From Streptomyces pactum (GTDB lineage: Bacteria; Actinomycetota; Actinomycetes; Streptomycetales; Streptomycetaceae): DNA of 64,000 bases. Under the pieces are notes generated by a model. The model saw only the letters and a list, made by a program, of their open reading frames with translations, was not told where the DNA came from and did no database searches. The first letter of the stretch is position 1; each line of letters starts with the position of its first letter. Both the position numbers and the translations under genes were made by a program. Below are positions 35,182-39,502 of the stretch, in pieces. The DNA lies in assembly GCF_002005225.1 (NCBI RefSeq), contig NZ_CP019724.1:6465501-6529500 (forward strand), given 5' to 3'.

Positions 35182-35495
35182 CCTTCCGTCCGGTTGGGCC
35201 CTCCGGTGCAGCGGTCTTCGGTGGCTCGTGTGTGCCGTCGGGGTTGGTGTGCGGCTCGGTGTGGCTGGAGGGGTTGGTGTGCGGCTCGGCGCGGGCGGGG
35301 TGGGGTCGGGTCCTTCCGTCCGGTTGGGCCCTCCGGTGCAGCGGTCTTCGGTGGCGCGTGTGTGGGCCGTCGGGGTTGGTGTGCGGCTCGGTGTGGCTGG
35401 AGGGGTTGGTGTGCGGCTCGGCGCGGGCGGGGTGGGGTCGGGTCCTTCCGTCCGGCTGGGCCCTCCGGTGCAGCGGTCCTGGGTGGCGCGTGTGT
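35182..35495. repeat. Tandem repeat of about 130-132 bp, 2.4 copies
   Basis: CCTTCCGTCCGGYTGGGCCC begins units at 35182, 35312 and 35444 (periods 130 and 132). Each full unit also contains two copies of GGGGTTGGTGTGCGGCTCGG. The third copy is truncated. The units differ by only a few bases. Confidence 0.9.
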
Positions 35496-35517
35496 GGGCC
35501 CTCGCGGCCGGAAGTTC

Positions 35518-35597
35518 GGCCAGGCATATCCGGAGCGGCCAGGCATATCCGGAGCGGCCAGGCATGATCGGAGTGGCCCGGCATGACAGGAGCGGCC
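35518..35597. repeat. 19-bp tandem repeat, about four units
   Basis: GGCCAGGCATATCCGGAGC repeats at 35518 and 35537. Diverging copies follow at 35556 and 35575 and a partial one at 35594, always in a 19-base period. Confidence 0.9.
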
Positions 35598-35840: not shown

Positions 35841-37310
35841 ATGTCGCTCACCCGCAGGGACTTCGCCAGCCGATCCGCGCTCACCGGCGCCGGAGTCGTG
35901 CTGGCGGGCAGCGTCGGCGCCCTCGCCACCGCCCCGAACGCCCTCGCGTCCACGGACACCGAGAGCGCGGGGGAGGAGCACGACCGGGGCCGCGGACGCG
36001 GGCACGACCACGGTGGGGTCGGTTACGGACCACTGGTCCCCGACCCGGACGGCATCCTCGCCCTGCCCGCCGGCTTCCGGTACGAGATCATCACCTACTG
36101 CGGCCGGACCAGGCTGGAGTCGGGCGAGTACACCCCCTCCAACCACGACGGCACCGCGGCCTTCGACGGCCCGCGCGGCACCACCCTCCTGGTTAACAAC
36201 CACGAACTGGGCGGCCACCGCGACGACTGGGCCCACCCCGTCCCGCTCGCCGAGGGCCTCGTCTACGACCCGGCCGCGGCCGGCGGCTGCACGGTCGTCG
36301 AGGTCCGCCGCGGCGGCCACGTCGCCGAGTGGGTCGGCATCGCCGGTACCGCCCAGAACTGCGCGGGCGGCAGCACCCCGTGGGGCACCTGGCTGACCTG
36401 CGAGGAGACCGAGGACAAGGCCGGCGAGGAGGGGATGACCAAGGACCACGGCTACGTCTTCGAGGTCGACCCCGAGGACCGGCGCGCCAACCGCGACCCC
36501 GAGCCGATCAAGGCGCTCGGCCGCTACGCCCACGAGGCCGTCGTCGTCGACCCCAAGCGGGGCCACCTCTACCTCACCGAGGACGCCTCCGGCCCCAACG
36601 GCCTCTTCTACCGCTGGGCCCCGCCGGAGGGCTTCCGGCACGGCCGCGGCCGACTGCGCACCCTCGCCGACGACGCCGGGGTCCTCCAGGCCTTCAAGTG
36701 CTTCGACTCCGGCGGCAAGTTCGTCGACGACCTCTCCCGCGCGACGAGGACCGGCACGGTCTACGGCGTCGACTGGGTCGACGTCCCCGACCGCGACGCG
36801 GAGAACACCTCCGTGCGCAGGCAGTTCACCGACGGACAGGTCACCCGCGCCCGCAAGCTGGAGGGCATGTGGTGGGCCGACGGCGGCGCGTACATCGTCT
36901 CCTCCTTCGCCCGTGACGAGAGCCCCGGCCGGCCGCACGACGGCCAGGTCTGGTTCTACGACCCGGGGCGCCGCACCCTCACGCTCAAAGTCCTCCTCGG
37001 CGTCAACCCCGACCCGTCGGCGGACGGCGCCTTCGACGGTCCCGACAACATCACCGTCTCGCCGTACGGCGGCCTCGTCATCGCCGAGGACGGCGACGGC
37101 GTCCAGCACCTGTTCGGCGCCACGGACAGCGGCCGCACCTACCCCATCGCCCGCAACGACCTGAACGTCGGCAGCGAAGACGATCCCGAGTACAGCGAGT
37201 TCGCCGGCGTCACCTTCTCGCCCGACGGGAAGACCCTCTACGCCAATATCCAGGACCCCGGCATCATGGTGGCCATCACCGGGCCCTGGAAGCGGCAGAA
37301 GCGCCGGTGA
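35841..37310 (+). CDS. PhoX-type (DUF839) secreted alkaline phosphatase
   Basis: 489 residues with a Tat signal (LTRRDFASRSALTGAGVVLAG) and a DUF839/PhoX beta-propeller: LLVNNHELGGH, GTWLTCEETED, GRYAHEAVVVD, LTEDASGPNGLFYRW, GPDNITVSPYGGLVIAEDG. PhoX enzymes are calcium/iron phosphatases exported by Tat that release phosphate from organic esters. The PHO box upstream indicates induction under phosphate limitation through PhoRP. A hairpin terminator follows directly. Confidence 0.9.
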   Translation: MSLTRRDFASRSALTGAGVVLAGSVGALATAPNALASTDTESAGEEHDRGRGRGHDHGGVGYGPLVPDPDGILALPAGFRYEIITYCGRTRLESGEYTPSNHDGTAAFDGPRGTTLLVNNHELGGHRDDWAHPVPLAEGLVYDPAAAGGCTVVEVRRGGHVAEWVGIAGTAQNCAGGSTPWGTWLTCEETEDKAGEEGMTKDHGYVFEVDPEDRRANRDPEPIKALGRYAHEAVVVDPKRGHLYLTEDASGPNGLFYRWAPPEGFRHGRGRLRTLADDAGVLQAFKCFDSGGKFVDDLSRATRTGTVYGVDWVDVPDRDAENTSVRRQFTDGQVTRARKLEGMWWADGGAYIVSSFARDESPGRPHDGQVWFYDPGRRTLTLKVLLGVNPDPSADGAFDGPDNITVSPYGGLVIAEDGDGVQHLFGATDSGRTYPIARNDLNVGSEDDPEYSEFAGVTFSPDGKTLYANIQDPGIMVAITGPWKRQKRR

Positions 37311-37317
37311 TTAATTC

Positions 37318-37344
37318 GCTCGCCCGAGCGACGGCCGCCCTTTT
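37318..37344 (+). terminator. Terminator of the PhoX gene
   Basis: CGCTCG pairs with CGAGCG across a CC loop, starting 8 bases after the stop. A downstream TTTT (37341-37344) lies just before the first Y RNA. Confidence 0.6.
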
Positions 37345-37349
37345 AGAGT

Positions 37350-37497
37350 GATGAACGTCCAGGTGCGAAGGCAGGACCTACTTCCACTCATAATGGGGCG
37401 GTCACGGGTTCGAGTCCCGTCACCGGCACAACACGCCGGTGTAGCTCAGGGGGCAGAGCACCTTGTCGGTTCCGCCGACCTGAACTCTGGACGCTCA
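37350..37497 (+). ncRNA. Bacterial Y RNA 1, with permuted tRNA-like domain
   Basis: Ro60-partner RNA. The outer stem is CGTCCAG (37356-37362) with CTGGACG (37487-37493). The 5' strand has the motif GGTGCGAAGGC, six bases, TACTTC (37362-37384), and the 3' strand has GAACTCTGG, both shared with the other two Y RNAs. The distal part is a circularly permuted tRNA: T-arm ACGGG-TTCGAGT-CCCGT (37404-37420), acceptor 3' strand CACCGGC, a 7-base loop, acceptor 5' strand GCCGGTG (37435-37441), then TA and the D-arm GCTC-AGGGGGCA-GAGC (37444-37459). The anticodon-stem equivalent is weak. Exact ends are unknown. Confidence 0.85.
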
Positions 37498-37507
37498 GAA
37501 CTTCATG

Positions 37508-37584
37508 CACCTCCCGGTGCGCGGGCCGCGGCTACTTCGTTGTCATCGAATCCGACGCCGCGGCCGTCTTGATCTCGGGAGGCG
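37508..37584 (+). ncRNA. Bacterial Y RNA 2, short, no tRNA-like domain
   Basis: The outer stem is CCTCCCG (37510-37516) with CGGGAGG (37576-37582). It carries the same 5' motif GGTGCGCGGGC, six bases, TACTTC (37516-37538) and 3' motif GATCTCGGG (37571-37579). GGCCGCGGC (37524-37532) pairs with GCCGCGGCC (37557-37565), closing a simple stem-loop. About 75-80 nt. The same-spacing motif in all three units argues for a real Ro-binding RNA, but transcription is not shown. Confidence 0.7.
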
Positions 37585-37596
37585 CGGCAGATGGTG

Positions 37597-37734
37597 GGTG
37601 CCCGGTGCGCAGGCGGCGGATACTTCCTTGACCGGACGTTGCGGGGTTCGAATCCTCGTCACCGACTTCGGGTCGGTGCAGCTCAATGGCAGAGCATCCG
37701 GATGTTCCCGTCGCCGATTCGGACCTCGGGCACC
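37597..37734 (+). ncRNA. Bacterial Y RNA 3, with a complete permuted tRNA-like domain
   Basis: The outer stem GGTGCCCG (37597-37604) pairs perfectly with CGGGCACC (37727-37734). Motif GGTGCGCAGGC, six bases, TACTTC (37604-37626); 3' motif GACCTCGGG. The tRNA mimic, in permuted order: anticodon-stem 3' strand CCGGA (37632-37636), 5-base variable loop, T-arm CGGGG-TTCGAAT-CCTCG (37642-37658), acceptor CACCGAC (37660-37666), loop TTCGG, acceptor GTCGGTG (37672-37678), CA, D-arm GCTC-AATGGCA-GAGC (37681-37695), one base, anticodon-stem 5' strand TCCGG (37697-37701). It lies 48 bases before rsr. Confidence 0.88.
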
Positions 37735-37781
37735 CTCCTTCCGCCGTGCCTCCCTCCGAAACGAATTCGGGGGAATTCACC

Positions 37782-39365
37782 ATGGCGCGATTCAACACCA
37801 AGGCCGCGAAGGCGCAGCCCACCTCGCGCGTGACGTCGACGGGCCGCGTGCTGCGCACCTACGAGGGCGGCCGGGGCCGCGAGCGCGACCCGCGTTCCGA
37901 ACTCTTCCTCCTCGCGGTCGCCAACCTCGTGTCGCAGCAGACCTTCTACGAGTCCGGCGCGGCCCGCGACGACCGGTTCGCCGCGCTCGTGCGCGAGCTC
38001 GCCGTCTCCGACCCGTCGTGGACGGCCGGCCTGCTGGGCTGGCTGCGCGGCGAGGGCAACCTGCGCACCGCCTCCGTCGTCGGCGCCGCCGAGTACGTCA
38101 AGGCCCGTCTCGACGCCGGTGCCACCGACGGCCCGGCCAACCGGCAGGTCGTCGCCTCAGTCCTCCAGCGGCCCGACGAGCCCGGCGAGCTGCTCGCGTA
38201 CTGGACCGCGACGTACGGGCGCGCCGTGCCGAAGCCGGTCAAGCGGGGGATCGCCGACGCCGTACGCCGGCTCTACCACGGCAAGTCGCTGCTGAAGTAC
38301 GACACCGCGTCCAAGGGGTACCGCTTCGGCGACATCCTCAACCTGGTGCACGCGGCGCCGGACCCGGACAAGCCGTGGCAGGGCGAGCTGTTCCAGTACG
38401 CCCTCGACCGCCGGCACAACCCGGACACGGCGGTGCCGCCCGCCTCGAACCGCGTCCTCACCGCGCACCGCGAGCTGATGGCGCTGCCCGTCGGCCGGCG
38501 GCGGGCGGTCGTCACCGCGCCCGACGGTGCCGAGCGGCTCGCGGCGGCGGGCATCACGTGGGAGATGCTGGCCGGCTGGCTCCAGGGGCCGATGGACAAG
38601 GCGGCCTGGGAGGCCGTGATCCCGTCCATGGGGGCCATGGCGCTCGTCCGCAACCTGCGCAACTTCGACGAGGCCGGCGTGTCCGACGAGGTCGCGGCGC
38701 GGGTGGCGGCGCGGATCAGCGACCCGGACCAGGTGGCGCGCTCGCGGCAGTTCCCCTTCCGCTACCTCGCCGCGTACCGGCACGCGCCGTCGCTGCGCTG
38801 GTCGTACCCGCTGGAGCGGGCGCTCGGCCACTCGCTGGCCAACGTGCCCGCGCTGCCCGGCCGGACGCTGGTCCTCGTGGACCGCTCGGGCTCGATGTTC
38901 TACTCGCGGATGTCGGACCGTTCGGAGCTCAGCCGGGCCGACGCGGCGGCGGTCTTCGGCACGGCGCTCGCGCTGCGGGCGGCCGACGCGGACCTCGTCG
39001 AGTTCGGTACGTCGAGCAACCGCGTGAAGTACCGCGAGGGCGAGTCGGTGCTGAAGATCCTGGAGCGCTTCGGCGACCTGGGCGGCACCGACACGACCGA
39101 CGCGGTCCGCCGGCACTACAGGAAGCACGACCGGGTGCTGATCGTCACCGACGAGCAGTACGCGTACAACCGGCACGGCGACCCGACCGAGCAGGTCCCG
39201 GAGCACGTGCCGGTCTACACCTGGAACCTGGCCGGGTACCGGGCGGGCCACGGCCCGTCGGGCAAGGCGGACCGGCACACCTTCGGCGGGCTCTCGGACG
39301 CGGCCTTCCGGATGGTTCCCCTGCTCGAAGCCGCCCGGGACGCCGACTGGCCCTGGGCGGCCTGA
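37782..39365 (+). CDS. rsr: Ro60 orthologue (TROVE domain RNA-binding protein, Rsr)
   Basis: 527 residues. An N-terminal HEAT-like TROVE domain (about 20-350; SELFLLAVANLVSQQTFYES, LLGWLRGEGNLRTASVV) forms the RNA-binding ring. A C-terminal von Willebrand A-like domain has an intact MIDAS motif DRSGS at 367-371. In other bacteria Rsr binds Y RNAs, which tether it to nucleases such as PNPase for structured RNA degradation, stress survival and rRNA maturation. ATG 37782 is chosen because GGGGGA lies seven bases upstream; an upstream extension would read through Y RNA 3. The Y RNA genes immediately precede it. Confidence 0.93.
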   Translation: MARFNTKAAKAQPTSRVTSTGRVLRTYEGGRGRERDPRSELFLLAVANLVSQQTFYESGAARDDRFAALVRELAVSDPSWTAGLLGWLRGEGNLRTASVVGAAEYVKARLDAGATDGPANRQVVASVLQRPDEPGELLAYWTATYGRAVPKPVKRGIADAVRRLYHGKSLLKYDTASKGYRFGDILNLVHAAPDPDKPWQGELFQYALDRRHNPDTAVPPASNRVLTAHRELMALPVGRRRAVVTAPDGAERLAAAGITWEMLAGWLQGPMDKAAWEAVIPSMGAMALVRNLRNFDEAGVSDEVAARVAARISDPDQVARSRQFPFRYLAAYRHAPSLRWSYPLERALGHSLANVPALPGRTLVLVDRSGSMFYSRMSDRSELSRADAAAVFGTALALRAADADLVEFGTSSNRVKYREGESVLKILERFGDLGGTDTTDAVRRHYRKHDRVLIVTDEQYAYNRHGDPTEQVPEHVPVYTWNLAGYRAGHGPSGKADRHTFGGLSDAAFRMVPLLEAARDADWPWAA

Positions 39366-39502
39366 GCCCGGACCCGGTCCGGGGCCGGAGCGGACCCGGA
39401 CCCGGACCCGGACCTGGACCGGGTTCGGATCCCGGAGCGGACCGGGCCCGGCCCCGGACGCCGGGCCCGGCCCGCCGTCCGTCGTGGCCCGCCGTCCGTC
39501 GT

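Follow-up and report, generated by a model that had tools for sequence, protein, structure and literature searches.

We report that the interval directly upstream of rsr in Streptomyces pactum probably encodes three Y RNAs, which would dock on the Rsr protein through a constant stem and carry exchangeable tRNA-like modules as a tether of the PNPase type; we put the probability of this reading, which is drawn from sequence comparison, at about 75%. The DNA analysed, called the window here, is a stretch of 64,000 nucleotides (contig NZ_CP019724.1, positions 6,465,501 to 6,529,500). An earlier note on this DNA had proposed three Y RNAs, two of them tRNA-like and one short, and the proposal is supported by covariation, by strict co-occurrence with rsr and by linkage to rsr in other sequence collections. 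Judged by analogy, the RNAs of the array would work like Y RNAs, and in how they mimic tRNA they seem to be an unusual variant among the bacterial Y RNAs already described.

A pattern scan located GGTGCG-N2-GGC-N6-TACTTC exactly at 37362, 37516 and 37604, as had been described, with no further match on either strand of the window. The 3' strands, read off the sequence, agree with the description as well (GAACTCTGG from 37482, GATCTCGGG from 37571 and GACCTCGGG from 37722), and so do the closing terminal stems, which are 7 bp in units 1 and 2 and 8 bp in unit 3, or 9 bp if the pair 37596-37735 is counted. The looser pattern GTGCGNNGRCNNNNNNTACTTC gave four matches in the 8.55-Mb genome, namely the three in the array plus a minus-strand match at 1628275-1628296; the reversed pattern gave none. 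Alignments of related loci revealed a plan common to all units, consisting of terminal stem, loop A, a nine-position helix, loop B and an insert (Table 1). Loop A is asymmetric, its 5' strand reading GTGCG and its 3' strand GANCT, and is invariant or nearly so; loop B is TACTTC, again invariant or nearly so. The helix consists of GGC and six variable bases, and its pairs covary. Because the alignments give this plan, the N2 of the original pattern is part of loop A and the N6 is the variable part of the helix. At position 4 of the helix most rows have no pair: 25 of 31 for unit 1, 57 of 75 for unit 2 and 48 of 63 for unit 3. In the alignments and the covariation counts, the terminal stem is conserved and covarying, and it goes together with the invariant, asymmetric loop A. 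Folding z-scores were -2.3, -2.7 and -2.8 for units 1, 2 and 3, and for each unit 2 of 200 shuffles scored at least as well. The sequence GUGCGAAGG of unit 1 may be set beside hY GUCCGAAGG. The lower stem of vertebrate Y RNAs, as described in PMC4726728, is a terminal helix whose Ro60 site is bulged and conserved in sequence; the likeness is one of description, and no homology is claimed.

Table 1. Features of the locus in window coordinates
Feature	Position	Strand	Basis
Conserved promoter-like block	37311-37349	+	Consensus of 93 distinct upstream stretches of unit 1 loci
Block element TTAATTCGCTCGCCC	37311-37325	+	Same 93-stretch consensus
Block element, -10-like TAGAGT	37344-37349	+	Same 93-stretch consensus
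Unit 1, predicted Y RNA with permuted tRNA module	37353-37496	+	R2 model, covariation
Unit 1 terminal stem	37356-37362/37487-37493	+	
Unit 1 loop A	37363-37369/37477-37486	+	
Unit 1 helix	37370-37378/37468-37476	+	
Unit 1 loop B	37379-37384	+	
Unit 1 anticodon-arm-like hairpin CCA-CTCATAA-TGG	37384-37396	+	Two of three stem pairs change on both sides; loop tally; shuffle control
Unit 1 remaining tRNA-like module	37404-37459	+	Rfam YrlA positions 24-84 align, 32.9 bits; pairs
Unit 1 T arm	37404-37420	+	
Unit 1 acceptor, loop-closed	37421-37427/37435-37441	+	
Unit 1 D arm	37444-37459	+	
Unit 2, predicted short Y RNA	37510-37582	+	R1 model, covariation
Unit 2 terminal stem	37510-37516/37576-37582	+	
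Unit 2 helix	37524-37532/37557-37565	+	
Unit 2 small hairpin with T-loop-like ATCGAATCC	37536-37539/37547-37550	+	
Unit 3, predicted Y RNA with permuted tRNA module	37596-37735	+	Rfam YrlA, R2, covariation
Unit 3 terminal stem	37597-37604/37727-37734	+	
Unit 3 helix	37612-37619/37708-37715	+	
Unit 3 broken anticodon stem	37632-37636/37697-37701	+	
Unit 3 T arm	37642-37658	+	
Unit 3 acceptor	37660-37665/37673-37678	+	
Unit 3 D arm	37681-37695	+	
rsr, Ro60 orthologue	37782-39365	+	TROVE PF05731 above cut-off

The units had been placed between a phoX terminator and rsr. The genes were right, phoX lying upstream and rsr downstream, but a scan of 37200-37850 returned no phoX terminator and no other terminator, including between the units and rsr. 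The promoter-like block ahead of unit 1 has CCtccTAgAGTGaTG as its conserved end and, going by this conservation, may act as the promoter; a simple sigma-70 scan of 37200-37850 gave no site within it. The identification of rsr as a Ro60 orthologue is supported by the TROVE domain PF05731 (E 1e-13, 51.7 bits, cut-off 23). The vWA models VWA_2 (16.6 bits) and vWA_Ro60 (12.7 bits) each stayed under their own cut-off, and relatives of Rsr among the solved TROVE structures are 9l5y and 9kop. The end of rsr falls in a GC-rich repetitive stretch (39362-39451) with chance matches to microRNA families. Imperfect direct repeats at about 35200-35560 of the window show as repeated peptide strings in overlapping frames.

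Covariation in homologous loci, which had been proposed as a check, was found above shuffles in all three units. The unit 1 alignment, thinned to 31 sequences out of 98 loci, had 12 pairs that changed on both sides, compared with 2.5 in shuffles and a count reached by 0 of 500; both the pairs and the cells changed on both sides exceeded all 500 shuffles. Unit 2 was represented by 75 of the 76 sequences thinned from 128, L153 being omitted for its long insert, and gave 38 both-sides-changed cells against 18.2 in shuffles (reached by 0 of 500) and six such pairs against 3.6 (5 of 500 shuffles got as high); the number of further pair types did not exceed that in shuffles, 418 of 500 reaching it. 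For unit 3, 63 of the 84 sequences thinned from 131 were used, the other 21 being omitted solely for list length, and the counts were 20 pairs (10.1 in shuffles) and 163 cells (41.4 in shuffles), values that 0 of 500 shuffles reached; in this count the odd T stem of the window was misaligned, and the helix was 52% paired.

The Rsr protein search of 121 genomes of the genus gave matches in 75 at E 1e-3, and removal of six weak partial matches (E 8e-10 or worse) left 69 rsr genomes, which include one remnant (G066) and two broken copies (G005 and G081). The unit 2 model, R1, matched 66 of these 69 genomes and 0 of the 52 without rsr. The rsr genomes without an R1 match are G044, G059 and G081, and unit 1 is present in the first two. 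Among 296 genomes of the class, 23 matched R1, nine of them outside the genus; rsr, 52-60% identical, was located just downstream in eight of these nine loci, and none was found downstream in the ninth (L252). The window's own units 1 and 2 scored 165.4 bits with R2 (over 37350-37497) and 92.2 bits with R1, unit 1 being among the 31 sequences behind R2 and unit 2 having contributed to R1; unit 3 scored 77.7 bits with R2.

A triple array had been called unusual, which it turned out not to be: at least two units were recognised by pattern in 139 of 150 Streptomyces rsr loci (a set that is not de-duplicated). All three units were recognised in 75 loci, units 2 and 3 only in 42, units 1 and 3 only in 13, units 1 and 2 only in nine, a single unit in four and none in seven, and those seven match R1. 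In other actinobacteria, five of nine loci carry three to five units; L250 and L254 have five before rsr, including a first short one recognised by eye. Multi-unit arrays are the norm at these rsr loci.

Scanning of 2.9 million viral contigs, so classified by their source collection, with the 5'-arm pattern alone returned 81 stretches, of which 80 were kept as loci. A relative of rsr was present in 63 of the 80 and was downstream on the same strand in 62, and the nearest motif lay 124-1190 bases (median 179) from the rsr start. Of the 17 viral loci in which no rsr was detected, ten extend less than 1.1 kb downstream and seven at least 2 kb; in one viral locus (L300) rsr lies elsewhere. The recurrence of such a cassette in related bacteria and among viral sequences is why the array is regarded as real. 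A plasmid search gave no match. A blastn comparison with named phages was set aside as uninformative, its matches covering only the tRNA-like parts of the query; among the matches listed (20 of 52 records), eight were annotated tRNA genes, 11 were unannotated and one was a hypothetical protein.

A covariance-model search, also suggested beforehand, brought no support from the Rfam YrlA model (RF02553), with which the window scored 33.1 bits (37613-37720, unit 3) and 32.9 bits, far under the cut-off of 69. None of the 61 genus genomes searched with the model, of which 39 carry rsr, gave a match above the cut-off (best score 59.0), and its best match in the genome of the window, at 36.5 bits, was a tandem tRNA-Asn pair (L001). 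A match to this model was rejected as proof and proves little alone, because the window scores below the cut-off and the tRNA-Asn pair reaches 36.5 bits. Partial R2 matches (positions 35-111) occurred, among the matches listed, in many genomes of the genus, whether or not these have rsr, and the one examined, in L001, spans both tRNA-Asn genes; only full-length R2 matches were counted. ARAGORN predicted 0 tRNA genes in the window, and RF00005 gave 19.7 bits at 37359-37428, under its cut-off of 29.

The permuted order of T arm, acceptor and D arm is present in units 1 and 3 and absent from unit 2. In unit 1, the T arm, the 7-bp loop-closed acceptor and the D arm are 100% paired in 31 rows, and a hairpin with a 7-base loop sits between loop B and the T arm. 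Across 98 loci, the loop of this hairpin holds C32, U33 and A38 in 97 each, U36 in 96 and A37 in 86, while positions 34-35 vary (CA, GA, CT, GT, GC and others); its stem is CCA/TGG in 88, CGA/TCG in six, CCG/CGG in two and another in two. The anatomy suggests that in unit 1 the docking stem interrupts the anticodon stem within its 5' strand, and that in unit 3 it takes the place of the anticodon loop. By pattern, the unit 3 D arm is class-I-like in 65 and Leu-like in 45 of 110 loci, and unit 3 has a long variable arm in some loci.

On the rsr DNA tree, the unit 3 module type changed 20 times (shuffled mean 35.1, minimum 29), the presence of unit 1 14 times (27.1 shuffled) and that of unit 2 eight times (11.5), counts of a kind that tree error can inflate. 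The DNA tree was used in place of a protein-based rsr tree, which gave 24 module changes and had no shuffle control. The unit traits follow descent yet change often, since the change counts are high but under the shuffled means. Single loci also departed from the common arrangement: L150 and L151 carry a unit-1-like module in unit 3, and L153 has a T arm in unit 2 and a unit 3 that has lost its own T arm. In the isotype comparison, in which five misparsed rows were kept (L128, L138, L125, L134 and L121), the scores of the halves were close between isotypes, and only the split between Leu-like and class-I-like and clear single cases, such as L023 with both halves scoring best to Arg-ACG, were relied on; labels such as Glu-like and Asn-like were given by eye against a tRNA panel. 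Wide module exchange is supported by these observations. At the tandem tRNA-Asn junction of L001 (5887031-5887143 in the genome of the window), tandem tRNA genes were seen to resemble a permuted tRNA, and the modules may have arisen from such genes.

The lower stem of bacterial Y RNAs is reported to bind Rsr, and DrY to tether Rsr to PNPase (PMC4726728). In the reading preferred here, Rsr, as the product of the next gene, would serve as the dock for all three RNAs. The common docking stem would comprise the terminal helix, loop A as the presumed Rsr site, the nine-position helix and loop B, and whatever lies beyond loop B would be an exchangeable effector module. The cargo would be a permuted tRNA with an anticodon-arm-like hairpin in unit 1, a small hairpin in unit 2, and in unit 3 a permuted tRNA whose anticodon loop is replaced by the docking stem. 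One promoter probably drives a precursor RNA running into rsr, which is probably then processed, with the units stabilised by Rsr. By analogy with Deinococcus RYPER, the tRNA-like modules probably link Rsr to a partner that binds tRNA, be it PNPase or another, and the short unit 2 RNA probably serves mainly to gate or fill the Rsr surface.

The modules, above all those with a hairpin, might instead bait anticodon nucleases or tRNA-modifying enzymes while on Rsr, phages in this way countering tRNA-cleaving defences; we consider this unlikely. Anticodon-arm-like hairpins (at least three pairs, G-U allowed) were found in 56 of 195 distinct segments from all collected units, compared with a mean of 1.5 and a maximum of six in 200 mononucleotide shuffles. 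When only Watson-Crick pairs were counted, 54 segments had at least three pairs, 23 at least four and six at least five, and among the viral units with a hairpin 35 of 40 have stems of 5-6 pairs, G-U allowed. Choosing hairpins by geometry only favoured 7-base loops (34 segments, against 6-19 for each other size) and recovered C32, U33 and A38. This excess of hairpins speaks for a bait, as do the fixed loop frame around variable positions 34-35, the occurrence of cassettes in viral contigs and the possibility, raised by the Salmonella authors in PMC7790460, that YrlA competitively inhibits an anticodon nuclease. However, 139 of the 195 segments lack a hairpin by the same test, unit 3 of the window is among the hairpin-less module types, no nuclease is linked to the locus, and a PNPase tether already explains the tRNA-like domains. 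Similarly doubtful is the broader joint claim in which Rsr cassettes act as exchangeable racks that present whole, permuted tRNA mimics on a constant docking stem. Their cargo would have been taken again and again from among the tRNAs (Lys-, Met-, Arg-, Leu-, Glu- and Asn-like, judged by anticodon loop or D arm), an anticodon arm, often present, would leave the reading bases free to vary, and host or phage would set the mimics out as baits for anticodon nucleases or tRNA-binding proteins; the observations support the wide module exchange in this claim but not the bait function.

It is quite improbable that the three structures form a 5' leader that regulates rsr, for example through feedback by Rsr binding. 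The units do stand 5' of rsr on the same strand, with no terminator found before rsr in the window scan, and their position is constant across the rsr loci compared; such a leader and a stable RNA are also compatible with each other. A unit is not merely an rsr leader, however, because solitary copies stand far from rsr. A fourth predicted Y RNA of the same genome (L258, G000:C1:1628164-1628309, minus strand) is solitary and far from the genome's only rsr. By eye, it has a Glu-like D arm and an anticodon-arm-like hairpin, and similar copies occur in eight other genomes (L259-L266); a terminator scan at L258 returned none, and a GC-rich hairpin after the unit was seen by eye. In nine other genomes (L215-L223), units lie away from rsr and upstream of a PriA-like gene, which starts downstream on the same strand in nine of nine and is 72-100% identical over its first 200 residues; L217, L219 and L221 have a second unit. 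Two further arrangements were observed. L214 (G065:C1:8071319-8071569) is an array of two units at a distance from the rsr of its genome, and the stretch analysed around it has no PriA-like gene; L225 (G066) is a full-length unit 2 beside an rsr remnant matching residues 449-527 only, in which rsr was lost and the RNA left behind.

That the units are permuted tRNA genes or tRNA pseudogenes, meaning rearranged genuine tRNAs or decayed copies, is very improbable. When the halves of unit 1 were rejoined across the Y stem, ARAGORN called a cloverleaf in 30 of the 31 rows, and in 0 of 31 when the halves were left in the order found. ARAGORN is permissive, however: shuffling the D half still gave 18 of 31 on average and shuffling the anticodon half 26.5 of 31, and 8 of 31 aligned whole unit 1 sequences were called unaltered. 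The acceptor is closed by a loop and so lacks a free CCA at the 3' end, the anticodon is free to vary, the docking-stem loops A and B show no or almost no variation, and covariation speaks against decay. The fixed-join ARAGORN test discriminates weakly, and a version with free join points, which called 191 of 213 distinct units tRNA and 0 when reversed, was discarded because the control with a shuffled D half gave 183 of 213.

Y RNAs have already been reported in bacteria and mycobacteriophages (Chen 2014 as cited in PMC12282133). YrlA (RF02553) of Salmonella and relatives, for which modification by DusA and TruB is reported, resembles the units described here in its Rsr-binding basal stem, its tRNA-like domain of T, acceptor and D arms and its position adjoining rsr (PMC8394870). 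Unlike YrlA, the Streptomyces units score below the Rfam cut-off in 61 genus genomes and have two invariant loops split by a nine-position helix; some bear an anticodon-arm-like hairpin or a long variable arm, and one short unit has no tRNA-like domain. DrY in the RYPER of Deinococcus radiodurans, likened by description, is an Rsr-associated RNA with a PNPase tether (PMC4726728), as in the reading preferred here. The Salmonella operon rsr-yrlBA-rtcBA likewise has more than one Y RNA with rsr, namely two (PMC7790460); going by the operon name, these follow rsr and rtcBA is present, whereas in Streptomyces three RNAs precede rsr, and Pfam searches of five neighbouring genes gave no RtcA or RtcB. 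The Y RNAs proposed for Listeria phage CKA15 are three highly transcribed regions at most 2 kb upstream of an Rsr-like gene and in the same direction; the account in PMC12282133 leaves the identity of these RNAs open, and the likeness to the array is by description.

Among the open-licence papers listed on Y RNA, permuted tRNA and Ro60 or TROVE proteins in Streptomyces, none describes such an array in its title or in the opening of its abstract. What seems to be new is the two-loop docking stem with its nine-position spacer, the retained anticodon arms, the repeated exchange of tRNA cargo and the breadth of occurrence in viral contigs. The docking-stem model finds units in nearly all rsr genomes, where the Rfam model passes its cut-off in 0 of 61, and gives one to five units per rsr locus, with like units in viral contigs. 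It tells apart a constant handle, which presumably binds protein, and a tRNA-like cargo that varies. Because handle and cargo are separated in this way, and units with and without the module or the anticodon arm can be compared within one array, the role of the tRNA-like domain becomes directly testable.
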